A DNA stretch of 64,000 nucleotides, from contig NC_090698.1 of assembly GCF_040954835.1 (NCBI RefSeq), positions 27,333,501 to 27,397,500 on the forward strand. The letters run 5' to 3'. The notes under the pieces were generated by a model that was given only the letters and a program-made list of their open reading frames with translations, had not been told where the DNA came from and did no database searches. Shown here in pieces: positions 24,001-62,985 of this stretch. This stretch comes from Lepisosteus oculatus (lineage: Eukaryota > Chordata > Actinopteri > Semionotiformes > Lepisosteidae). Made by a program: the position numbers and the translations under genes. The stretch's first letter is position 1. Each line of letters begins with the position of its first letter.

Positions 24001-25874
24001 TGAGATTTGGATACTAATATCCTTGCAGTGTAAACAGCACTGGGAAAGAACTGCAGGGACTGACTGTATTGAGCAAATGGCCTAAAATCACCAGTGCAAA
24101 AACGTCAATCGTACATGACCCAGCATGTACTTTCTCCTGTATTGTAGCACCACAGACTATTCTGACTGATACCAGGGCAAAAATAAGACACTTTGAGTCC
24201 ATAACATTCCATTCCTGATACATGAAAAACCTGTTGAACAAAGCTTTCTTGAACCACGAGAAAAGGCTGAACACCGCAGACACCCACCTTCTCATTGTGT
24301 TTCTCCTGTTGTTCTTTCCTGGCCTTGTCCCGTTCCCAGTTCGCTTCATCTTCAGGTACTTAAAAAAACACATCAAATGCATATTGCATCAGACTCTTGG
24401 TGCCAAGGGTAGTCTCTGTGATTATTCAAGGTTATTAAATAAAAAGTAAAGGAAAAAAAGGGCAATGTTGGTAAAATACAATACATTTCAAACCCTGGCT
24501 GCACAGAAAGTCAGTGATAACCAATGACCAAATGTGTTGCGATGAAGCCGGTACTATTGCCTTTCTCGTGGGAGCCGAGAGGTAAGTCTGCGAGTATACC
24601 CAGAGTGTGGAGTGGCTGACGCTGACCTTGGGGACAGACCAGGTGGAGAGTGGACTGGAAGAGGGATCTCAGCCGTGGAAACACTGCCGACACCAGCCAC
24701 GTAGCCAGAGCCAGCACCAGGAGCCCTCGCCCGGCCAACAGCAGCACGCGTCTCACACCTGACAAGACACACGGGATCTCCCGTTACAACAGGCAATCGC
24801 AAAGAATAAGTACACGTCTGAGCGCTCAGGTATGGACGAACGCACTGGGCTGAAGACCCAGTCCCTGGCTGCAGGACCGCCCAGCAGAGTGAGCAGATAA
24901 CTAGGCTGTAGCTGCAAAGGTGGTGGGGAGGATATCCGCAACACAGAAGAAAATGAAAAGAGAAGTTTACTTATGAGATATACACATGCACCTTTTCCAC
25001 GTAACGACGCCTCGGATGATTAAAATTTCGAAGAGCTAGAGTGAAAGTGAAGGGGCAAGGTTTTGCGACTTCTTTCCAAACGATACTTCAGCTGGAAGAA
25101 TATACATTATTTGCATCACTGGTCGAAAATAACATTTTTATTAAATGTCTCGGACAAACTCATTATGGCATTATATGCAAAATTGCATGGAATAAACCTT
25201 TACTTGTTCCTTTGCAGCCTAAGCATGCTGACGCAGCTACCTACTTGAACTACTTCAACCCAATTATTAAAAAGACATGTACAAAAGCTTCGTGTCTTCC
25301 TCTCAGACATTTTCTTTTATGAAATTAATGTTTCATAATTGAAAGTTTATGAAATTTTGTTTCACATTAATAAAATCAAGCAAGAACTTTAAAAATAATA
25401 AATGCATGAGAACAGTGATGATCATCATGTTACAAAACAGCTTTTGGTGTGACAATTTCATAGGCAGAAAAACTGCAAAAATTAGAAACTATCAATTACC
25501 GAGACAGTTCAGATAAAAATATAAACGTTAATTGTGAAAGGAGCCTGATGCTGATTTTTATACATCGGAAAATTGGTGTTCATGGAATCCTTCAATATTG
25601 TGCGAATTTATAAAGTTGAAAAGCTATAAAACTAAATTACGATATTTATATTTATGTGCTGTGATATTGCTTGGTACGTATTACAAACACACTTCCATGA
25701 ATAATAATAAAAAAGCGAAAGAACAGAAACAGGTCAAATAAATTATTTCACGTCACTAAACAGTTACTAAGACGGAGACCTTTTCTTACCAACATTAGAG
25801 TTTTTCCACAAAGCAAAACAATAGAAAGACAGAGACACTATTCCGAATAGTGCAACTGTCTTAAGCTCAGCCAT
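18053..25874 (-). CDS. ubxn8: UBX domain-containing protein 8 (ER-anchored p97/VCP adaptor)
   Basis: UBXN8 (Rep8) sits in the ER membrane and tethers p97/VCP through its C-terminal UBX domain during ER-associated degradation (established knowledge). Coding exons in transcript order are 25790-25874, 24627-24758, 24288-24358, 23186-23308, 22535-22678, 21460-21501, 20609-20683 and 18053-18223. All have GT-AG introns and phases that join, giving 280 aa (human 270). The start MAELKTVALFG opens a hydrophobic N-terminus. A second hydrophobic segment (about residues 33-55) follows, then a charged stretch and the EKLYRMTGELWKLSAGQ block in exon 4. That block closely matches the human EERFYQMTGEAWKLSSGH region. 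The UBX domain spans about residues 200-275 (ALRCTSGRTFRRTFLKSHSS, then VLLDWMVKIGYHPAIYTI). The p97-contact loop reads YPR where human has FPR. Human UBXN8 is likewise convergent with PPP2CB. Confidence 0.93.
19962..20245 (+). mobile_element. V-SINE (ubxn8 intron 7)
   Basis: Plus orientation. The tRNA-like head gagtggtggagtgcttagtg is followed by gttgctgccttacagagctg, tgggttttctcccacagtcc and a core with gatgtcctgtccagtgtgaa. It ends near gcaaccctgtatt. It is diverged, with no clear target duplication. Confidence 0.65.
21142..21195 (+). repeat. 30-bp tandem duplication
   Basis: The 23-bp block beginning gtattgtgtaatgtg and ending ttatgtct occurs twice, 30 bp apart. It lies in a ubxn8 intron and no function is apparent. 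Confidence 0.85.
21775..22407 (+). mobile_element. TTAA-flanked MITE, copy 1 (ubxn8 intron 5)
   Basis: The left terminus aggagaactgcagtccc and the right terminus, read in reverse complement as aggggaactgcaactccc, form imperfect inverted repeats. The left flank is TTAA (21771-21774) and the right flank TCAA (22408-22411), one change from a TTAA duplication. The interior aligns with the copy at 11127-11711 in opposite orientation. There is no transposase. The TTAA target points to piggyBac-like mobilisation (inference). Confidence 0.65.
23334..23590 (+). mobile_element. LINE remnant, 3' coding end
   Basis: A plus-strand frame ends with MVVGVWNKLPSHVVETDAL, then ASFKTWDQ and a stop. This is the VWNxLPxxVV..SFK signature near the C-terminus of L2/CR1-type non-LTR polyproteins. 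It is followed by the aaatggcctcatttcttttc tail. Similar 3' ends occur near 33.1-33.3 kb and 41.2-41.35 kb. Confidence 0.65.
25187..25250 (+). mobile_element. Penelope-like element tail fragment
   Basis: The segment running from gcatggaataaacc through cctttgcagcctaagcatgc to acttgaac matches the 3' tail of the element at 61056-61260 and the nested copy at 56806-56867. It is 5'-truncated and lies in the first intron of ubxn8. Confidence 0.6.
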
Positions 25875-25992: not shown

Positions 25993-26438
25993 AGATTACT
26001 GAAGAAAAAAATCATTGCTGCCCTCTAGCACCCAAAAATGGGATTTCTTGACTTTTCTTCCAAGGGTGCATCACTAAAGAGCAGAGATACTGTATACCTC
26101 AATGTTTAAAAAAAGAGCTTCATATCAGATACAGTATATATTAGAAAATATTAGTTTATATCAGATACAGTATTTAATTTTTATTATGTATGGCTTAAAG
26201 TCATACATAATACATAAATTCTGGATAAACTAATGGTGCCACTGGCTCACACTAAGCATTTTTTTTTAATTGTTTAAAACAGTTTTGTCTGTTGTAGGCT
26301 TGTTTTTTATTAAACTTTTTGATTCTGATCATACAAATCTTGCTTCAACAATGAGGGAATCCTTCAGTCTGAATCAAAGTTTAAGATGCGTTTAAACGGT
26401 AAAGGTGATTTATTTATGCAAGACACAATATCATTGTG

Positions 26439-26926
26439 CCAGCAGCCATATCACCCTGTAGCTCTCAACTGCCTACCCGCTGAAGCTAAGCCGGGTTGAG
26501 TGTGGTCAGTACCTGGATGGGAGACCTCCTGGGAAGCTATGGTTGCTGCTGAAAGTAGTGTTAGTGGCACCAGTGGGGGGCACCCACCCTGTGGTCTGTG
26601 TGGGTCCTAATGCCCCGGTATAGAGGCGGGGACACCATACTGTAGTGGGTGCTGTCTTTTGGATCAGAAGTTAAACCGAGGTCCTGACTCTTCATGGTCA
26701 TTAATGATTCCCAGGCATTTCTCGATATGAGTAGGGAGTTATCCCAGTGCCCAGGCCAAATTTCTCCCCTCGGCCTTTACTGTGGCCTCCAAATTGTCCC
26801 CATGTATGACTGGCATGGACTGGTGCCCCGTCCAGGGTGTACCCTGCCTTGTGCTCGTTGCTTGCCAGGTAGGCTCTGGCTTAACACGACTCCATTATGG
26901 TATAAAGCGGTTTGGTAAATGACATG
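26439..26926 (+). mobile_element. 5S rRNA-derived SINE with target-site duplication
   Basis: The 5' part carries a 5S rRNA-like region with gctgaagctaagccgggttg and gtcagtacctggatgggaga, covering the internal promoter side of 5S. A body follows that contains V-type sequence (gtccagggtgtaccctgcct) and a short tail. Exact 14-bp duplications acaatatcattgtg flank it at 26425-26438 and 26927-26940. It is a retroposed copy, not a working 5S gene. Confidence 0.85.
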
Positions 26927-27458: not shown

Positions 27459-30400
27459 TCAGAACACCAGTGGCTTTGATTTTTCCCAGGGAAATTCTTC
27501 TCTCCCAAAGTGCCCATAACACGCCGTTTTCTGATAGATGGGTCTTTTCAAATTGAGCTCCCTGTAGGAAAAATTAGATAGCTTACCACAAACTCACACA
27601 AAATCTAGCCGCCATAGAAATAAAGTTAACAGATTCTTAGGTTTACAGATTCCAGCTCTAATTTAAATACATTTCTAACCTAAATACTGTGTACGTATTT
27701 CAGATTTTTATTATTATTATTATTTTGGGGCGCAGACTGCAACTGGAAAAAGCATTTAGATGTTTTTTTTATGGGTATTCCACACACTTCCCTGAATCTT
27801 GAAATGTTTCTCAGAAAAGATCCAATTCCAGTGCTTGAGGACCCCAGTCCATCGTGTTGTCACATTGTCGGTTTAATCAACATTAAACCCAAGACAAAAG
27901 GTTTAATATGGTCTAGTTAAGGCTTAACTGTACCACAAACCTTCAAATATGTTAGGCAGTGCCCTTCAAGGCCAAAGACCTGCAACAAACCCTGCCACAG
28001 ACAGATCTATTCTTGAGATATTATTTTCACATACGCAGATATCCCACAGACAAGCGGGACTGACAGACGTTTTTATATAATAATACAGTATTTGACAGCC
28101 TGTCGCACCTGAAACAAACCTTTCACTTTGTCTTGCCACATCTTTTCCAGTGTATGTGAAGAGCACGGATATTATCAACAGAGTGCTGATGACGACAGAG
28201 CGTCTCACAGGGGAATCATTTGTGCCTAAATTGACATTTTATACAGTATCATGTTCTTGGTTCCACCACAGCTTGGTGGAATAAGTTATTTGCTGCATTA
28301 GTTGGTTAATAATAATAATATAATAAACTTTATTTTATATAGCGCCTTTAAAGGTGGCTTCTCAAAGCGCTTTACAGGATGACAATAACAATAAATAAGA
28401 AGACTACAACAATAAATAAGAAAATTTCACAAGACAGGACACAATTATAATTACAACAATACAACAATAACAATAGAGGAGACCGTGGAAGATGGTATTA
28501 AGAAGAGCAGAGGGGTGAAGAATGGAAGCAGTTAAGTAAAGGCTTTTCTGAAAAGGAGGGTTTTGAGTCTGGATTTGAAGGAGTTTAGAGAAGGTGACTC
28601 TCTAATATCCTTGGGCAAGGAGTTCCAGAGCTTGGGGGCATAGCAGGAGAAGGCCCTGTCGCCCATACAATGTAGACGGGCTTGGGGGACAGTAAGGAGG
28701 GCAGAATTTGAAGAGCGGAGGTTGCGAGGTGGGGAGTAGGGCGATAAAAGTTCAGACAGGTATTGAGGTGCCAAGCCATGTAAAGCCTTGTAGGTGAGCA
28801 TGAGGATTTTAAAGTCTACGCGGAATTTGACCGGAAGCCAGTGCAAGGACTCCAGGATAGGAGTAATGTGAACACTTGCACTAGATCTGGTCAGGATTCT
28901 GGCTGCTGAATTTTGGACATACTGCAGCTTGTTCAGAGTAGATTTAGATACCCCAGGGAGCAGAGCATTGCAGTAGTCAATTCGAGAGAATACAAATATG
29001 TTGATCAGCTTTTCAGCCACAGTAAATGATAGCATAGGGCGTAGTCTTGCGATATTTCTAAGGTGAAAAAAAGATGTTTTGACAGTATGCTGTACATGTG
29101 GGTCGAATGTTAAGCCAGAATCGAATATAACCCCAAGGTTTTTCAATTTTGATTGGAGCTCAAGTACAGAGCCATCTACAGACAGGGTTACAGGACTGGC
29201 TTTACGAAGTTGATGGGGGGTACCAATAAGCATGACTTCAGTCTTGTCACAGTTAAGATGAAGGAAGTTTTGAGTCATCCAAATTTTTATGTCAGAGATG
29301 CAATTAGATAGAATAGAGACAGCCACATCAGTGTCGGGTTTGGTATGGATGTATATTTGAGTATTGTCAGCGTAAAAATGAAAGCTGAGGCCATGTGATC
29401 TTAAAAGCTGACCAAGTGGGAACATGTAAATGCTGAAGAGCAAGGGGCCCAGTATTGAGCCCTGAGGGACACCAGACTTGACAAGACCAATTTCAGACCT
29501 GTACCCATTGAGAGAGACAAAGTGACAGCGATCAGTGAGGTAAGACTTAAACCATTTGAGGGCAGTGTCAGAGACTCCAAACACAGTCTCGAGACGAGAA
29601 AGTTAAATATGATAACAGTTACTAAAAGGGATAACGGTTAAATATGATAACAGTTACTAAAAGGGTCCAATGTAAGAGGTTGTACTAAATTCTGTCCAAA
29701 CAAAAACTATTACATCAAAATTAGCATGGGTGAAGTTTTAAAATCTGTCTCTTTAAATTATGACAGCAAATAATTCAGCTCAGTCAGTCTTCTACATAAC
29801 ATTAACTAAAACCCAGAAAGAAAGGAAAAAAAAACAGACCTAACTATGACCCCAGGTCGCAGGTCAAAGTTTTTCTTCACTATCTCCAGCAGCTCATCTT
29901 CATCTCTAGTCGAGGTGCCATAATGAAAGATTGCGATGGACAGCGGGTGGCTTATTCCGATGGCATAGGAGATCTATTACAAAACAAGAGAGCAAAGGAG
30001 AAAGGTCTTGTTGCTTTTTTGTACTGTAACCTTTTTTTAACATTTTCTTCCATGCAGCTGCAGGCAACTACCAGAATGTTCCAAAAAGCACACTGCCTGC
30101 GAGCTTAAATGAAGAAATCTCGTTTCTTTGGCAAGGACAGCTCTCACAGCTCAAGGTCCCAATTGTACAACATGAAATTCACCCCCTTAGAAACACACTT
30201 CCCAAGCAACTATGGTGAGAGCCCTGGACGTTGGTCAGAGTATTCGCAGTCTCACGAGGTTATTTTCCAAGTCCCTGTCTTCTGAAGAACAAACTGATTC
30301 TGAAATACAACCCTGCTTTTTATCTTTGTCACGGATGTCGGAAGGGACAAACCGTGGAGAGGCAGGAGAGCAGAAAAAGACCCATATGCGTAGCGGCGGA

Positions 30401-33400: not shown

Positions 33401-36400
33401 GGTACTTCAAATGAAATGTGGCCTCCAAGGTTCAACCCTAATTTTAATTTCCCTGAATTTAGTGATTTATTACGTTAAAACAGGTGTAAAACGCATTGTG
33501 AATACATGATCTTTTTTTTGTAGCATCAAATCATTGAACTGTGGGGCTCCAAGAGCACAAGATGGGAAACTTTGTTTACTTTATTACACTTTGAGTTCTG
33601 ACAATTACCAATACAGTTCGGTCCTACAAACAAGGTATCTTACCTGTGTTTTAGAGTCCGGTCTGATCCACGGACATACTCTGTTCCTGGAGAGCTCTTT
33701 CATCTTTGCATTGAGCTTGTGAGCCAAGAGTATGGTCAGGGGCATGCACTCATCTGTTTCATCAGTAGCATACCCGAACATGAAACCCTGTGAGGAGACC
33801 ACATATATTATGAGAATTCTTCATTTTATAACAGGGCTACACTACAGCCAGAGTCTTTCATTATCACTGGATTTAATTAATAATAATAATTATAATTATA
33901 ATTAATAATATTAATAATAATTGCTTACACTTATATAGCGCTTTTCTGGACACTCCACTCAAAGCGCTTTACAGGTAATGGGGACTCCCCTCCACCACCA
34001 CCAATGTGCAGCATCCACCTGGATGATGCGACGGCAGCCATAGTGCGCCAGAACGCTCACCACACATCAGCTATCAGCGGGGAGGAGAGCAATTCATAGA
34101 GGGGGATTATTAGGAGGCCATGATGGGGTAAAGGCCAGGGGGGAAATTTGGCCAGGACACCGGGGTTACACCCCTACTCTTTTCAAGAAGCACCCTGGGA
34201 TTTCTAATGACCACAGAGAGTCAGGACCTCGGTTTTACATCTCATCCGAAGGACGGCGCCTGTTTACAGTATAGTGTCCCCGTCACTATACTGGGGCATT
34301 AGGACCCACGTGGACCGCAGGGTGAGCGCCCCCTGCTGGCCCCACTAACACCTCTTCCAGCAGCAACCTTAGTTTTTCCCAGGAGGTCTCCCATCCAGGT
34401 ACTGACCAGGCTCACACCTGCTTAGCTTCAGTGGGTTGCCAGTTGTGAGTTGCAGGGTGATATGGCTGCTGGATTTGTTTTACAATTACTTGTCACTAAA
34501 GTGTTTTTCTATGGAAATGTTAGTTCAACAGACATCAACTATCAGAAAGCTGCTTATTCCTGGACAGGGTCATGGGGTCACACCAACATATAGTCTAGCC
34601 TGTAGGTATTAGGTGCAAAGCAGGACTACACCTTGGGCAGCACGCCTGTCTATCACAGGGTGCACTGACTGACTGAAAGCACAAATACATGCACGCAGAT
34701 AATTTAGAGACACCAATTAATCATTACGAGTATGGCCTTCAAAGGTGGGAGGACACAAAAGAACCTGATGAAACAACCCATGCAAACACAGGCAGAACAT
34801 GCAAACTCCACACATAAGTTGGCCCACCCTGTCCTCAACTGAAACAATGACCCAACAGCTGCAATTCAATGCTAACCACCAGCTTTCAAATTTCATTCAA
34901 CTTAATATTCTCATGTCTGTAGCTATTATGGCCTAAGTATGGGATTTCATAAGACCACTTGTTAGTATTTTCTTGCAGAAAGAACAAATTATAAAAGGGG
35001 TGCAGTTATTGTGTGATTTATGTTTTGCAATCTTAGACTGTAATGTTTTAGTATGTATGCTTGGCATTCGTTTTCAGTTTGCAATTCTATAACTTTAGCC
35101 TGTTCAATTTAATGGTATAATGTGTCAATTTTTTATCTTTTAGCCTATTTTTAAACTATCCCCCCTTGCACACCCCTGATGAACTCACACTGACAGCTGT
35201 TGTACTAGAAATGTGTATTTTAGCAAGATTTTGAATTGAGGTGCTGTTTCTTCCTTTTTCCTAGTCCTATAGTGATCATGTCCTGAAACTCCCATGCCGA
35301 TATTGTCAATTTGGGATCTGTGCTTCTATAGAAGAACAATATATTATTGACATTTCTTTTTAATGAGGTGATTTTTGTTCCCATTATTCCAGAGTATGCA
35401 AAAGTAAAAAAATACTTATTCTGTTACACATTTATGCACTGCATTGCATTTGTCTAACAATTTCTGTAATGTATACCTTCTGGCAGACAAACTATGTCTA
35501 GATGGAAAGAAATCATTAATGTAATACCTGGTCTCCTGCACCAATATCTTCCTCGTTCCTGCCCTCAAAAACACAGTCTGTGATCTCCATGCACTGGGGC
35601 TCCAAAGCAACCAGCACATTGCAGGTCTTATAATCAAAACCTACCGATGGAAAGGCAAGGTTTAAACAAAGAAGTATACTGGCAATGGCACACGATCCAC
35701 AGTTTTTTTATTTAATTCCAAAAGACTTAAATTGCAATAAATCATTTATCATATAATGTCCTGTAATGTAGTCTTTCAAAGCACAAATGAATGGTATACT
35801 GGCAAGTCAAAGACATTAAATTTATATAACAGGACAATAAAGAAGCAGAGCACAAAGAATTAGCAAGAATCCAGACTTGCATTTGATTAACAATTCAGTT
35901 TAAGCCACTTTATGCTAACATATAGTGCACATTTTCCATAGAATTGGGGTTAATGAAGTTAGAATATGTAGTGGTTTCATTTAAATGACTTGGAATATTA
36001 ATATCTGTAAGTTGTGAAAACATATATTTTAGCCAAAACAGTTAAAGAAAGAGTTCTTCACAGGAAGAAGTTAGTACTTTCGAAAATTCAGGGTTTATAT
36101 TGGACTGAGTGTATAACTGTGAATGAGACAGTGTGTAGATTCACCTTCAGTTTAATTAGCTGAAGTCACTGAACATGTTATTACCTCTGCTTGGCACATA
36201 GTTTAATTTAACTCTACAGCTTTACACCACAATGTGTTAGTTTTGAAAAAACAAGTTCAATTCTACTAGTACTGGAAAATGCAGAGTGATTAGAAGCATT
36301 CTGGGAATTTGTGGCTGAAATGACCATCATGTTTCTAAGGGCAATATATTGGACAGTACCTTTGGAAGAATCATCATATCCAATTTTCTTGATGGTATTC

Positions 36401-55247: not shown

Positions 55248-58200
55248 TTAGTAAGGCTTGTAACTGTTTTGGTGACCACCACGCCTTGGAGTTTTGCCAT
55301 AACCACTCTGCTGATCTAGAGATTAAGCAAAAAACAGTCTGGCGTTAAACCTCAGTTTACAGAATGCTGTTTAAAACTGAAGATTTACTGAAATCCTGAC
55401 TGAACCCATACAGATGGTTTACTGAAAGCTGTAAATCTACAACTTGGGAAAGGCAATTCAAATAGTGACTACAAACAAAAACCTTATAAATATATGAAAT
55501 CTTTGCAATTCCAGGACAGTGGGTCACACGGTTGCTTATTAGGCAGTACACAAGGGGAGGAGAGGACCTTTGTTTTCAGATCCAAACTGGTCAGGATAAA
55601 TTTCAATGGCTCTGACGGCCATCATCCAACACAGTCCGAAGACTTAACTGTATACTCAAACATATCAATTTTTCATTGCCCTGAAAAGAATTATACACGC
55701 AATTAAAATGATGAGCAAAGAAAACATGTGGAAAGATTTTTAAATAAAAGATTGGTTTTATTTTCTTTAAAAACGGAAATTTTTAAATTTCAAATAGCTT
55801 ATAGTAGGAGATTATCTTGTACTGTCCCAACAATTTAAAACACTTGTATGTGAAGCGAAAAAAAAAAAAAAGATCACTTTTCAGTCTGGATATAGTCTGC
55901 GTATTTCACTTAAACCAGCCTTTTAATAACGCGTTAGAAACTCCCTCACTGAAAAGAAAACTGTAACGTACATGCCAGCACAACACTAAGATGGTGCATG
56001 CTTTTTAAATAATTTAGTGACAGGAAGCTGCAAAACTTAAAGAAAAAAAAACAAGATGATGTGATACCAAATCATTTTCTTTTTTTTATTAATTGTGCTT
56101 TGACAGACAAGGTTACATACTGCTGTAGTCACCATATCCGTAGTAGTTGTTATAACCGGAATAATCATAGCCCCCGTATCCTCCGTAGCCTTGGCTGTTG
56201 TAGCCGTAGTTGTAGTTGCTGTATCCCGGATTCCAGTAGCTGCTGTATCCCTGGTTCCAGTTTTGACTTGGGCCTGCAAAGCACAGTAGCATCACCCAAT
56301 TTGCCACAAGGACACCGTGAACTCACTTGCAAAGACACAGCGAGAGCCTAGCTGTGCCCAGTGACTGCTTCTTGTCTGTCACCTTTCTTACAGTGTTGGT
56401 GAACTGCACAACAGCATCCTGTTTTTCAGCTGCTTCTTTTTTTTTAACAATCCCCAACTGTTTTAGGCTTGCCCTTTGCAGATCAACAGAAGTTGGAGGT
56501 TTTAAAGGCATTTTTCAGTTAGCAACTGAATAAGACCTACAAATAATAATTATAATTAATAATTTCTTACATTTGTATAGCACTTTTCTGGACACTCCAC
56601 TCAAAGCGCTTTACAGGTAATGGGGACTCCCCTCCACCACCACCAACAGGCAGCATCCACCTGGATGATGCGACGGCAGCCATAGTGCACCAGTACACTC
56701 ACCACACACCAGCTATCAGTGGGGAGGAGAACAGAGTAATGAAGCCAATTCATAGATGGGGATTATTAGGAGGCCATGATTGGTAATGGTTAATTCCATG
56801 ATTGGAATAAACCTATTACTTGTTCCTTTGCAGCCTATGCATGCTGACGCAGCTACCCACCTGAACTATGATTGGTAATGACTGGAAAGGGCCAATGGGA
56901 AATTTGGCCTGGACGCTGTGGTTACACCTCTACTCTTTTCGAGAAACGCCCTGGGATTTTTAATGACCACAGAGAGTCAGGACCTCAGTTTAACGTCTCA
57001 TCGGAGGGACGGCACCTGTTCACATTATAGGGTCTCCGTCACTATACTGGGGCATTAGGACCCACACAGATCGCAGGATGAGCGCCCCCTGCTGGTTCCA
57101 CTAACACCTCTTCCAGTAGCAACCTTAGTTTTTCCCATGATGTCTCCCATACAGGTACTGACCAGGCTCAAACCTGCTGAGCTTCAGTGGGCTGCCAGTT
57201 GTGAGTTGCCCACGTGACTCAATTACTAACTTGTACGAAGTCCTTGTCTTTGATCTCCGACTTGCACCTATCTTAGAAGTCACGGGTGACACCAGCCACA
57301 GTGCGACTGAGTTAATTGCAGAAGGCCGACGGTGTCAGGCACAGCCAAGCAAGAGCGCAGCTGAGACTCACCACCTCTTCCACGGGCTCTGGACACAAAG
57401 TTCCCCCTGCCTCCCCACTGCTGCTGCTGGTACTGTTCTTTGGACATGGCGACCTTGATTTCACACTGCGCAGGAACAGAAACAGGGAATGCCTTGTGAG
57501 AGCCCAGCTTCCCGCAGCAAACACTAGTTTCTCAGACTGCGGCTACTCTAAACACCTCTGCCCCTAGACTACCGTAAGCTCGGGAGCGGACTGCTAGTAA
57601 CTGAGTCAATACAGGACAAAATGATCAACAGCAGAATTGGAAAACCCCCGAGTTAAAACACATCTGGATATGGCAGGGTGCATGGACTTTATGGCTCAGA
57701 CCTTGTAATTTCACTATTGAGTCCCTACTTCCAAAAATACCAAATTATCACACACACAGCACAATCACTCCTCAATTCCAGCAAAATCACTCCTTAATTC
57801 CAGACTTCATGACACAATTTCTAACCAAAACACCTAAGAATCATGCAATTAGATGTACTCAAATGCAGCTAACAATCTAGCTCTGTTATAATTTGCCGCT
57901 GCCTGTAGGAAAATAGAGGTTTCAAAGGCTGAAGGGGCGGAGCTACTGAAAGAGCGGCGTACTTTACTGAGCCCAACATTGTGGTACTTCTTCTCCATGA
58001 TCTTCTTCACGGGCTCCTCTTCCTTGAAGGTGATAAAGCAGAAGCCCCGTCTTTTGTTGGTCTTGTTCTCCATGGGAAGCTCTATGGACTCCACCTGGGG
58101 ATAGAGCACATCCGATCAGCTCCCCCCCCCGGCTTCAGAAACACGTGTGGGCCCTGGGGACAGACACGAGGACAGCGCCCAAGAAGAGCACAAGCGACTC

Positions 58201-61200
58201 AGTGCTCAGGGGAGACTGAAAACCAACACCACGCAGTACACCATTCAAGAAGGGCATGTGACGCTCTGAGAGATGTTCCAAGCAAGGTTTAGAACATATT
58301 TTGATTTGCTAACTTTTATGATTCCAACCACTGAGAAATGGCACTTATGGGCAACCTCACTCTTCCTTCCAAATCGGATTTCAGTTCCTGTTGTGCGTTC
58401 ACTGGAAATGGGGTGCAGGAGAGCCCTAATACAACAGGCCTACAAATTCTCAAGATTTGTTAGTATCTGTGATGCAGTTCTACATGCCATTTGTTCAATT
58501 AAGTCATTCAGAGATCCTCCAGGACCAAATTCCCACCACAGAAATCTTATAATAAGCAGATGTTCCCAAGCTTTACTAACAAGTGAATAATATAACTAAC
58601 TGGATTATTGACTATGCAAGATCTGGGCTGGAAAATCACAGATATTTTATGCAAGAAAGGCATTTTCTACCTATAGAATATTCACTATATTTTCAGCTGA
58701 ATCTTTCATAAAGCAGATCCAGCTACTGCAATAGCCTGCCTTAACTCTAACTGCTCTCATTTTTTAGACGTCCCTTTCTTTAAGTGGTACAATGATACTT
58801 TTCAGTGACCTGAAAGCAAATTATTCTTAGCTGGAGTGTTGTTTATATTTCTGGAGCTGCACAATCTGTAAATGTGATCCAATGTACTTAAATGCTTGTG
58901 TTTCCTTTTGTTTAGGGAATAGGTGCTGTCATTTTCAAACACCGAACTTCAATCCTAGGAAAAAAAACACTTTAGTTCACGGTCAACTGCACCCTTTTCT
59001 GCAATCTCAATCCTGAAGGTCCCATACACGTTTTTCTTGTTCTTTGGATCTTCTTTTTAAATTAGTTTTAAAAATCTGTGATCCTAAAATAAATGAGTAC
59101 GATGCATACCTCCCCAAAACCACCAAAGTATTCCCGGATTTTCTCCTCAGGGGTGTCCGGCGAAAGTCCTCCTACAAAGATTTTTTTCACTGGTTCCTTG
59201 GTCTTCATAGCCTTGGCTTTCTTAGGGTCAATCACTTTTCCATTCAGTTTGTGCTCCTTCTGCACTATAACCTGGAAGATAGGCACACCAGAGGACACAA
59301 AGCTTAGTCTTGTGAAATCATCAACCAGGCTGGCTGTGTTTTTCCACTTCATTCCCAAACCACTGCTGTGGCAAGGAATTTGATCAAGTCAAAACTCACT
59401 GCAAAAAAGCCAAACTAAAAGCTTTCTCGCAAGTGAAATGCCTCAGAGGATTAGTAATTGGGGTTTTCTAAACGCACTTGTGTAGCAAAAATGACAAGAA
59501 GATGGCACAATACTATAGTCCCAGTACTGTTTCCATTAGCCAACTATGGTTTATCGGAGTAGAAAATGTTAAAATTTCCCCTTCTAAATACTACAAAGCA
59601 CATTACTGGGGTAGTAATTCTGCATTAATATTGCAAAGAAAGACAGGTATTATTTTCAAATGATGTCAATCAAATTAACAATCTTAAATATAAGCAATGT
59701 TCTGAAAAATATCCCTATATCTTTCACTCATATGTATTTACCCTAACAATATGAATTAAACAGGTTTTGTTTAATTTTGTCTTTAGTCAGAAGCTTGGCA
59801 GTTTTGTCACAAACACATCTTGAGTGAAAACGATTACTGATAGATAACTCATGTTCTTCTATATATTTGTTTCTATTACAATTCCATTCACTCAACAAAA
59901 CCTGTGTATTCTAGACACACAATTGGCCAAACGAGCAGATGTTCCTTTTTAATTCACACTTGCAAACAACAATTCTAATCAACATGAATAATTAAATATA
60001 TTTAAATAGTGGTTTAGATTCAATCATGTGATAAATTTAATGCAATGTCACCTAAATGAGCTACACTGCAAACTGAGCCAAACCTTTAACTACAAAGATT
60101 AAATACCCCACTGTGAATTTTTCTAAATACATCTGTCCAGTTATTCCATTTGTTCTTTTGAAATAAGCACCCATTAAAAGCAAATATTAGAAAAAAACAT
60201 TTCTTGATTAGTTCTATTTTTTTTTCAAACCATAAAAATAGCTATGGTTTTCCTAGGCATACAAATTATTTGCTGATCAAATCAGGAATGTAAAATGTAG
60301 GATCATGGACCAAAAAGACATTTCTTTCATTTAGCGTATCGGTAAATTATACACAGTATAATATGCTTAAAGAAAGATATCCTCAAGAAAAAAAAAACAT
60401 TTGCACAGGACTGAAATCAGCATTATATGCCCATTAAAAAATAATCTGTACTTTTATATAACCGTGTTGGAAAATCTCTACACATCTTCGAAATGGAAAG
60501 TGCTTTTAGAACAGCAGTTCTTTGTGAGTAACTGGTAGTAAAATTGTAAGTAAGTAGTAGCTGTAACCACTATAAGCTAGTACCTTCACAATGCAGAAAT
60601 GTTTGAGAGAGCCTGTGCATTTACTATGAAGGCAATTCTAGCAAATTGGCAGCATGCTAACCTCAGAAACAGAAATACCTTATCAACGCTGTCAGCATCT
60701 TTAAATAATACAAAGCCGAATCCTCTGGACCGTCCAGTCATGGGATCCAGTTTTAGTGTGCAGTCTACTACTTCTCCAAACTTGGAAAAATAATCTTTCA
60801 GGTCCTTCTTCGTTGTATCCCAGCTCAACCCTCCAACAAACATTTTTCTGTTAAAGAATTAAAAGTACATTAAAAACAATCTTTTTAAGGATGAAAAACA
60901 TAGGAACAGGTTTACATGCAACCACATGTGCACATACCATATATGGATGTATTGTTTAACAGTGTCTTGGGTGCCATACCAGACAATGTGTTAACATGGT
61001 ATAAGCATCACATCATGCTCTTATGCTGATGCAGACACACATTATAATACAATTGGAACAAGTAATAGGTTTATTCCATGCTGAAAAAAAGAAGAAAGAG
61101 AACACAACGTTTCGGCCGTGGAGCCTTCTTCAGGTGTTCACCTGAAGAAGGCTCCACGGCCGAAACGTTGTGTTCTCTTTCTTCTTTTTTTCAGCATGGA

Positions 61201-62985
61201 ATAAACCTATTACTTGTTCCTTTGCAGCCTACGCATGCTGACGCAGCTACCCACCTGAACTTATAATACAATTGTTTGCCTAAGTGAATTTTGTCTTCGA
61301 ACAGCAAAGTGGTGCAGTAGTAAACATTGCAGCCTAGCAGTGCTCGGTCCCTGGGTTCAATTCCCAGAGTACTATCTGCGTGGAGCTTGTATGTTCTGCT
61401 CCGGTTTCCTCCCACAGTCCAAAGGCATACTGGTGGGTTAACTGGCTTCTGGAAAATTGGCCCTGGTGTGAGTGTGCGCAGTGTGATAGACTTGTGATAG
61501 ACTGGCGTCCCATCCAGGGCGTACCCTGCCTTGCACCCGTGCTACTTGCCAGGATAGACTCCGGCTCCCCTGCGACCCCGAGTCAGATAGAGGGGTTAGA
61601 ACATGGAGGGTGACGACGCTCTGAATGGGATTCCAGACCACTGCAGGGCGCAAAGACACTCTAAATGTAAATACTACAACTCGTATAGTCAGTATGTCTT
61701 TCTTAACTGGAAGGAAACTGGACCACATGTCAAAATTTACCTGAGCAACAGCAATAATGTGAAAACTCCTCCCATATAACACCCCTGCCCAGAACTGAAC
61801 CCAGGACCTATGGCACAGCATGCCACTCGCCTTGATAACACTTCCTAAATGTTGTGCTTAAAACCAGATATCTTAACAGTTTACACACCGTGAAACTACC
61901 TAGAATACTGATTTGCATTCCTGAGCACTTAAATACCTATCTAGACAGTGCGATATGTATCAATGTAGCAGGTAATCAAAGTAAATCTACAATTTACAAC
62001 TGAAAATGAAATTGGGGTGAGGTAGTAACACTTTTATCCGAGTTAAGTAATCACTGCGTCTGCACCGTAAACGTTTTAGTCAACTGAAAAACACAAGAAA
62101 AACATTCTAAGTATACCTATACCGTGACTCTATATAGGGTGCAAATCCTCAGCAAGCATCACTCACGAAACCGGTTGAGTCTCATGAGGACAAACCGGTT
62201 TCGCTTCAGATAGCTGACACTTGGGTGTGACCCAGTTGAACCACCGCGCGGTTATTCAGGTTGCTGACGTTACTATACCCACTCTGTACGATACTTAAAA
62301 AGCCATGAACTGTATAGCAACTTCCAGAAATACTTTCCACACCAGGTAGAAGTGTGTATCAGTCATAACACTTCACTGCCAGTGTTCTCAAGTGCGTTTT
62401 AATACCGTTTAAACGCCCTTAGATTTAATAATGGTCTATAAACTATATGGCACCAGTTGATCCCACTCTGTTATAATGTCGTGATTATAATGGACTGCGA
62501 TAAATTATGCGGTACAGCTTCACGTTTTGGAGTACTGTTGCAAAAAGAAAAACTAATTTTCCGCAGTTTACTCCAACTGGAGTACCAGACATCGCCAGCT
62601 ACAGCGAGACATTTTATATTTAAAAACAAAGGTTTCAGCGTCACTCGAGATTGCTGTTGTACATTACGGATTACGCTGCACAACACAGATTAATGCAGCA
62701 CACGTTACGGGACCCATTTGTCGATGACCTGTCTCTGTGGTAGCATCGTCAGTGACAGTACTGCCCGCAGCCCCTTGTTCGCCCTGGAGACTACAGAGTC
62801 CGTGTCGGGTCTCCGTCCGTCTCTCACCCTTCATCCTCCTCGTTTTTGCTGGCGTCGATCTTCGATCCCTCGGACTCTGAAGCCCCGCTCTCTCCGGTCG
62901 CCATCTGCTGCTCCTCTCCGCCCGCCTCCCCGTCTTCCTCCATCTTCACCACCGGGTCCTCTCCGACTTGGTGCTCCTCCGACAT
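55248..62985 (-). CDS. hnrnpd: Heterogeneous nuclear ribonucleoprotein D (AUF1)
   Basis: HNRNPD binds AU-rich mRNA elements and controls mRNA decay, shuttling between nucleus and cytoplasm. Coding exons in transcript order are 62828-62985, 60679-60847, 59110-59271, 57963-58094, 57372-57465, 56121-56273 and 55248-55315. They give 311 aa, within the human isoform range (287-355). The acidic N-terminus ([20 protein letters not shown]) leads into [17 protein letters not shown]1 starts near residue 55 ([23 protein letters not shown]1 RGFGFVLF). RRM2 starts near 140 ([23 protein letters not shown]1 RGFCFITF). A Gly/Tyr-rich tail ends [18 protein letters not shown]. The RRM sequences match HNRNPD better than HNRNPAB. 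The 153-nt exon 56121-56273 is a multiple of three and corresponds to the human cassette that separates long and short isoforms. The 57-nt N-terminal cassette of human AUF1 was not found. Confidence 0.95.
56548..57208 (-). mobile_element. 5S rRNA-derived SINE interrupted by a Penelope-like fragment
   Basis: Minus orientation. The L2-like tail is at the left (tagcacttttctggacactc, then caaagcgctttacaggtaat) and the 5S-like head at the right (gtactgaccaggctcaaacc and tgctgagcttcagtgggctg). A 62-base insert at 56806-56867 splits it. It lies in an hnrnpd intron. Confidence 0.85.
56806..56867 (+). mobile_element. Nested Penelope-like tail fragment
   Basis: The insert runs from aataaacctattacttgttc to gcagctacccacctgaact and matches the tail of the element at 61056-61260. 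It is flanked on both sides by atgattgg, consistent with a target-site duplication made inside the older SINE. Confidence 0.75.
61056..61260 (+). mobile_element. Penelope-like retroelement remnant with hammerhead-like motif and long perfect palindrome
   Basis: The element is 205 bp with identical 14-bp flanks, ttataatacaattg at 61042-61055 and 61261-61274. Bases 61056-61136 and 61139-61219 are perfect inverted copies (81 bp each, 2-bp spacer). The right arm contains ctgaaga (61142-61148), a short ggc/gcc helix and gaaa (61162-61165). This order matches the hammerhead ribozyme core CUGANGA...GAAA, with one extra A before helix II. The left arm carries the same on the minus strand. A 41-base unique tail (61220-61260) follows. 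Hammerhead motifs are established in Penelope-like elements, but the family assignment here is inferred. It lies in intron 1 of hnrnpd. Confidence 0.75.
61300..61610 (+). mobile_element. V-SINE, full length
   Basis: This is the best-preserved copy in the window. It has a tRNA-like head (gtggtgcagtagtaaacatt, then gtccctgggttcaattccca), gtttcctcccacagtccaaa, the conserved core gcgtcccatccagggcgtac and cctgccttgcaccc, and the end near agaggggttagaacatgg. It lies in intron 1 of hnrnpd. Confidence 0.85.

Follow-up and report, generated by a model that had tools for sequence, protein, structure and literature searches.

The subject here is a short palindromic insert, and its many relatives, in the genome of the gar Lepisosteus oculatus. 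The insert lies near one end of a stretch of 64,000 nucleotides (nt), the window (assembly GCF_040954835.1, contig NC_090698.1, positions 27,333,501 to 27,397,500), and is probably a fragment of a Penelope-like element (PLE). A 14-bp target duplication, TTATAATACAATTG (61042-61055), is followed by the left arm (61056-61136, minus strand), a TT spacer (61137-61138), the right arm (61139-61219, plus strand), a one-sided 41-nt tail (61220-61260, plus strand), and the right copy of the duplication (61261-61274). A sequence-only reading had described a perfect 81-bp palindrome with a 2-bp spacer, a 41-bp tail, and 14-bp duplications, all of which are exact. The arms can also be counted as 82 nt each (61055-61136 and 61139-61220, 100% complementary), the leftmost left-arm base then doubling as the final base of the left duplication. 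TTATAATACAATTG occurs exactly twice in the window, and a chance match of the 14 duplicated bases has p ~2e-8. The palindrome is far outside chance for the window, where the next-longest inverted repeat (spacer up to 20 nt) has 15-nt arms; the best inverted repeats in five first-order Markov sequences have arms of only 10 to 11 nt.

The plus strand of the 205-nt insert has a predicted fold of -153.1 kcal/mol (z = -26.5), in keeping with the long hairpin expected earlier, and the host-intron product is such a hairpin, without implied host function. The host had been named as intron 1 of hnrnpd. The closest RRM exon (minus strand) fits hnRNP D-like (122.6 bits) better than hnRNP D0 (102.3 bits), and the intron number is best kept provisional. 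Identical arms had also been taken to imply a young insertion, or else repair that keeps the arms identical. Youth is not required, as variants in one arm of a sister element tend to recur in the other, as though both arms came from a single RNA source, and such repair is not needed to explain the window arms.

On the top strand, the 3' end of the target runs into the left arm (..CAATTG + GAACAAG..), and on the bottom strand it runs into the tail and right arm (..TTATAA + GTTCAGG..). The two arms are thus copies, in the sense of complementary DNA (cDNA), of one sense RNA, as expected if a 14-nt staggered cut primed at each of its ends. The left arm is read as primed by the top-strand 3' end. 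Judged from sister loci, it begins (outer edge 61056) at an inner start site, the tail reaches an outer start site, and the TT spacer would be the junction of two cDNA 3' ends.

Family assignment

How widespread are the relatives of this insert? Exact searches of the 1.2-Gb genome with a core pattern, CCTGAAGAAGGC-N6-GCCGAAACGTTGT, returned 3,026 + 3,011 = 6,037 matches. The genome search for the tail that had been proposed, made with its last 31 nt, returned 1,196 + 1,263 = 2,459 exact matches, and the reversed controls gave 0 in both cases. No family copy turned up in two pattern scans of viral contigs and one covering contigs from prokaryote genomes. The window locus belongs to an abundant class of short insertions that bears on the unsettled mechanism of PLE insertion, a mechanism that can be studied by counting, given thousands of sister copies in a single genome.

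Longer copies run upstream through common sequence into the end of an open reading frame (ORF). A GIY-YIG-like motif, mostly LIYCISCSKCPAIYIGETGRRLGD, is present in six distinct ORFs. The best Pfam GIY-YIG score is 22.4 bits (E = 1.5e-4), just under the cut-off of 22.6, and the NCBIfam model TIGR01453 (group I intron endonuclease) matches at E = 0.004, far under its cut-off. Full elements with GIY-YIG plus reverse transcriptase (RT) coding sequence had been anticipated: the longer copies supply a candidate for the first part, at these sub-cut-off scores, and not the second. The 294-aa ORF of loci L054 and L041 has no RT match in profile searches; in L054 it includes a stretch that looks like a PLE RT thumb, a likeness confirmed by no library.

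The Penelope-like identity proposed earlier is borne out by the sister copies, which combine a pseudo-long terminal repeat (pLTR)-like unit, an inverted partner, an optional tail on one arm, and target duplications with the GIY-YIG-like ORF upstream in longer copies. The duplications are short, as in PLEs (14 bp in the window; 13 to 15 shared flank bases in 17 of 35 head-to-head loci), and the sites are AT-rich by eye. The reading was to be refuted by the lack of a covariance-model match together with relatives of the tRNA short interspersed nuclear element (SINE) or DNA transposon type; only the first was observed (see below), the relatives being PLE-like. The sister copies support the insert being a 205-base pLTR-only stub of what appears to be an endonuclease-bearing PLE.

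Paired start sites and the 5' limit

Sister copies were followed in two samples. The core-anchored sample holds 92 copies from 100 listed of the 6,037 matches, 8 tandem-array members having been dropped; the 92 are partly nonindependent, L031 and L045 being one array and two copies (L041) one element. The tail-anchored sample, blind to the 5' end, holds 40 consecutive listed copies (C1:12.2-35.9 Mb). A lower threshold later reassigned L044, L062, and L023 to the head-to-head class, and inverted partners were later seen also for L028, L041/L054, and L088. The array of L031 and L045 (C1:6500572-6566274) consists of ~6.44-kb units, each with the same single copy stopping at the 5' limit described below, and represents segmental duplication after insertion.

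The 3' ends of these copies lie at an inner site (about ..GTTCC) or at an outer site (..CACCTGAAC) ~41 nt further on. Copies not initially called head-to-head use both, 26 the outer and 23 the inner, a few of them later being found to have partners. How are the two sites used within a head-to-head pair? Among the 35 such loci of the core-anchored sample, window included, 31 are inner/outer, 3 pair an unplaced end with an outer one, 1 pairs an unplaced end with an inner one, and none has two ends alike. An inverted partner accompanies 24 of the 40 tail-anchored copies, and its end is inner in 20, unplaced in 4, and outer in none. One inner and one outer start are thus found in 51 of the 51 placeable loci, out of 59 that are head-to-head. 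Independent site choice would give 31 mixed pairs out of 31 at p ~4e-10. Opposite pairs within 100 bp among the core matches listed were head-to-head in 9 cases out of 9.

The 5' ends of the copies were placed as well. In the core-anchored sample, 30 copies run on upstream, 61 (21 single, 40 head-to-head) stop near a hammerhead-like motif, and 1 does otherwise. For the 61 that stop, the number of bases upstream of CCTG is 0 in 4 copies, 1 in 4, 2 in 9, 3 in 18, 4 in 12, 5 in 4, 6 in 7, 7 in 2, and 17 in 1, so that the limit lies 0 to 7 nt upstream in 60 of the 92. Of the tail-anchored copies, 24 end at the same 5' point, 2 are short by 3 nt, 9 are shorter still, 4 go beyond, and 1 stops at 20. 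The common point, CTCACACC, coincides with the 5' edge of hammerhead helix I and fits the initiator consensus. We infer that it is the 5' end of the element RNA. The base before ACACC in shortened (non-full) copies is C in 26, G in 12, T in 5, and A in 1, so that a cap-derived G is neither proved nor excluded. The insertions are read here as "strong-stop" cDNAs begun ~82 nt (inner) or ~122 nt (outer, tailed) downstream of the RNA 5' end.

As for the motif itself, both strands of the palindrome carry CTGAAGA, a GGC/GCC stem, and GAAACGTT. The hammerhead-like cores reported earlier on both strands are therefore present, though helix I has 6 bp on the minus strand, owing to the junction, versus 3 bp on the plus strand. 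The elements follow hammerhead order (CUGANGA, helix II, GAAA, helix I, and a very short helix III) if one extra base is permitted after A9, as occurs in a viroid hammerhead. The minimal minus-strand motif (GAACAC.CUGAAGA.A.GGC-UCCACG-GCC.GAA.ACGU.U followed by GUGUUC) starts at 61139 (61103-61139; C3 = 61133), its GUGUUC strand continuing to 61100, and its predicted cut lies between 61106 and 61105. The second core occupies 61139-61172 on the plus strand (C3 = 61142), with a predicted cut between 61169 and 61170. The predicted cleavage point of the hammerhead lies between GAAACGUU and GUG. Helix III is shrunk to four self-complementary bases, ACGU, a form expected if hammerhead motifs of this kind act as dimers, as they are said to do (PMC6155905, PMC7761336).

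Is this a ribozyme? A descriptor written after the motif was seen, with the extra base permitted, matched these two sites only in the window; in 100 Markov sequences it matched 0.16 times on average and at most 2 times. The proposed covariance-model check went the other way, the Rfam models finding no hammerhead on the window, the locus, one arm, or a full copy. Matches to plant microRNA, FasX, and similar Rfam families are below gathering score and reflect the hairpin. The motif is best described as a candidate ribozyme, a putative minimal type I hammerhead of the PLE type with one extra A. Self-cleavage from the window locus is not expected, since the two cores lie on opposite strands of the -153 kcal/mol hairpin and, in the predicted fold, both would be buried while it is intact. 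Both window arms include the predicted cleavage site uncut, and such copies appear to show that the RNA was copied without prior self-cleavage at the hammerhead. This is in line with the anole PLE, in which cleavage is dispensable for insertion in vitro: hammerhead mutants insert like the wild type (PMC11167929).

Mechanism of insertion

What process yields a pLTR-only, head-to-head insertion? The best explanation, and a probable one, is two-ended strong-stop reverse transcription of PLE RNA followed by end joining. The endonuclease would cut the target in a staggered double break with ~14-nt 3' overhangs. Each target 3' end would then prime inside the 5' part of the element RNA, the two using different start sites (inner for one, outer for the other), and the template for both would be a single RNA molecule or RNAs from a single source. 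Both cDNAs would copy the uncleaved hammerhead and reach the RNA 5' end, much like a retroviral strong-stop product. Finally, the two cDNA 3' ends would be joined, often with small fillers from the element ends, by a microhomology or polymerase-theta-type process.

In 22 pairs, the two arms share 15 variants, against a permuted mean of 2.3 (largest value 10 in 5,000 permutations), which places both on one RNA or on RNAs of one source. Spacers between complete arms (n = 27) measure 5 to 8 nt in 12 cases and 12 to 70 nt in 15. After trimming of the expected end bases, 15 fillers of at least 6 nt are left, and 11 of them match an element end at p < 0.05, uncorrected; the filler of L054 is repeated ~3 times. 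The junctions resemble products of microhomology-type end joining, the enzyme being a guess. L037 (~797-804) and L038 (~850-857) share an identical 8-nt junction, TGTGAGCA, despite different target duplications, and this joint seems favored.

A stricter version is slightly less likely than not: PLE insertion might be obligatorily asymmetric and two-ended, with one RNA molecule, inner and outer starts at one break, and both cDNAs running to a capped 5' end at the ribozyme. If so, the pair of neighboring start sites would serve to let a single RNA be copied twice per break, end joining would close the head-to-head junction, and pLTR-only palindromes would be frozen strong-stop products.

Might the 5' limit not be an RNA end at all? 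RT could have halted at the folded hammerhead, or the RNA could have been cut there, and the limit does match the 5' edge of helix I. This is unlikely. A structural block would halt the cDNA 3' of the fold; instead, the motif has been copied in full, predicted cut site included, as is seen in the window arms and is true by definition for core-matched copies. Hammerhead cleavage, for its part, would put the 5' end 28 nt downstream of C3. Neither version sits well with the 30 of 92 copies that continue upstream.

A second alternative is self-priming, in which one cDNA (or an antisense-template product) folds back and copies itself into perfect arms, as was proposed for the Penelope palindromes of Adineta vaga (PMC3846280). 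The window arms are identical, and sister arms share variants, just as self-priming would have it. How far each arm reaches in the 5' direction is more discriminating. Among the 51 inner/outer loci, both arms end equally in 33 and the tailed arm goes further in 5, and these loci alone fit either model. In the other 13, the tailless arm goes at least 10 nt further, so that each arm holds sequence absent from the other. Such nonnested pairs argue that neither arm is a self-copy, since a self-copy cannot exceed its template. L120 is at the limit of this class, and divergence or long fillers complicate some of the 13, but 7 of them (L020, L025, L027, L044, L062, L108, and L110) have arms no more than 8 nt apart. 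Moreover, the tailless arm ends at the same inner site as one-sided insertions, and no inner/inner or outer/outer pairs were seen. Self-priming is thus quite improbable as the source of these copies. The one-inner/one-outer pattern and the independent 5' limits favor two-ended copying of sense RNA.

That the insert has nothing to do with PLEs, being instead an ordinary miniature inverted-repeat transposable element, a tRNA SINE, or an inverted repeat of satellite type, is very improbable: it is short, noncoding, palindromic, flanked by target duplications, and shows no RT, but the outer ends are asymmetric and also stand alone, lacking an inverted partner, the longer copies run into a GIY-YIG-like ORF, ARAGORN finds 0 tRNA genes in the window, and the tandem-repeat finder TRF finds no array at the locus.

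Several points weigh against two-ended strong-stop copying. The case is weakest where the RT is unseen, where the RNA 5' end is inferred, and where sampling was confined to one contig. No RT coding sequence was seen in the copies read, which did not reach the RT region, and the endonuclease scores fall under curated cut-offs (best 22.4 versus 22.6 bits). The RNA 5' end rests on cDNA limits and an initiator-like sequence, and one arm, in L127, runs past the 5' point. Every sampled sister copy is on contig C1. In 8 of the 59 head-to-head loci one end is unplaceable, the accepted inner-site window is broad (66-92 of the unit consensus), and the partner of L064, a locus scored as inner/outer, is weak and lies 155 nt off. 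Flank bases shared number at least 13 in 17 of 35 head-to-head loci and 5 to 12 in the rest, some perhaps by chance. Variant sharing also fits two RNAs of one source, and 4 of the 15 fillers are untemplated, the L127 arm just mentioned accounting for one.

Known systems and other features of the window

In LINE-1 (long interspersed nuclear element 1) twin priming, both target ends prime on the element RNA and an inversion results. The gar insertions, as read here, differ in that the two primings fall at internal sites specific to the element and a single RNA segment is copied in both. Two longer copies, L083 (1-712) and L091 (164-721), have an inverted internal segment beside a direct copy, like LINE-1 twin-priming products.

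The Poseidon-type PLE of Anolis carolinensis (PAc) has two adjacent internal RT starts that define its tail, and both target strands are cut and extended (PMC11167929). Shared with the gar element are a pLTR with a hammerhead (putative in the gar), an optional 30- to 40-nt tail, an AT-rich target, and, it seems, cleavage that is dispensable for insertion. No strand difference in start site was seen for PAc in vitro, whereas head-to-head genomic copies here use one site each. The PAc hammerhead overlaps the ORF start; in the gar element, no start codon is assigned. Penelope of A. vaga likewise has head-to-head pLTRs, one of the two bearing a tail (31 bp there), target duplications, and junction palindromes (PMC3846280). 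It differs in its low copy number and in having been read as self-priming on an antisense template, as against the 13 of 51 nonnested arms and the junction fillers here. Minimal type I PLE hammerheads (PMC7761336, PMC6155905) match in core order, helices I and II, near-absent helix III, and pLTR-like unit, and differ in lacking the extra A after A9 and in standing in tandem, the two window motifs being on opposite strands.

How does this compare with published views of PLE insertion? The further steps that complete insertion are described as "yet to be validated experimentally" (PMC11167929), and inverted pLTRs have been tentatively read as self-priming (PMC3846280). No statement of a one-inner/one-outer pattern or of strong-stop PLE insertions was found in the open-access literature searched; key papers lie outside it, and absence from print is not shown.

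The window holds two further family copies. The shorter one at 56789-56867 (plus strand) joins a tail end (tail match 56803-56866, 98%) to a short inverted left piece (GGTTAATTCCA versus TGGAATAAACC) and is flanked by 13-bp duplications (56776-56788 and 56868-56880). A target 10-mer, CCATGATTGG, reappears at the center of this copy (56774-56805), as if copied into the junction. The third, at 25185-25250 (plus strand), is older, 5'-truncated, and 94% identical, without a clear target duplication. Because CACCTGAA stands at the arm start and again at the tail end, a retrozyme-like tandem arrangement was considered and rejected: there is no tandem array at 60500-62500, and the flanking DNA after the tail differs among copies.

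Other repeats and coding remnants were also noted. A 356-aa frame at 28532-29602 (minus strand) contains an RVT_1 domain (E = 4.2e-16) and has no PDB sequence match; it was considered as a candidate RT for the family of the insert and set aside. Matches to the 5S rRNA family above gathering score lie at 34355-34473 (minus strand), 26438-26554 (plus strand), and 43201-43319 (minus strand) and are possibly 5S-derived SINEs. Directly to the right of the insert, 61300-61640 is a dispersed repeat with pieces 70 to 82% similar elsewhere in the window, SINE- or LINE-tail-like by eye.

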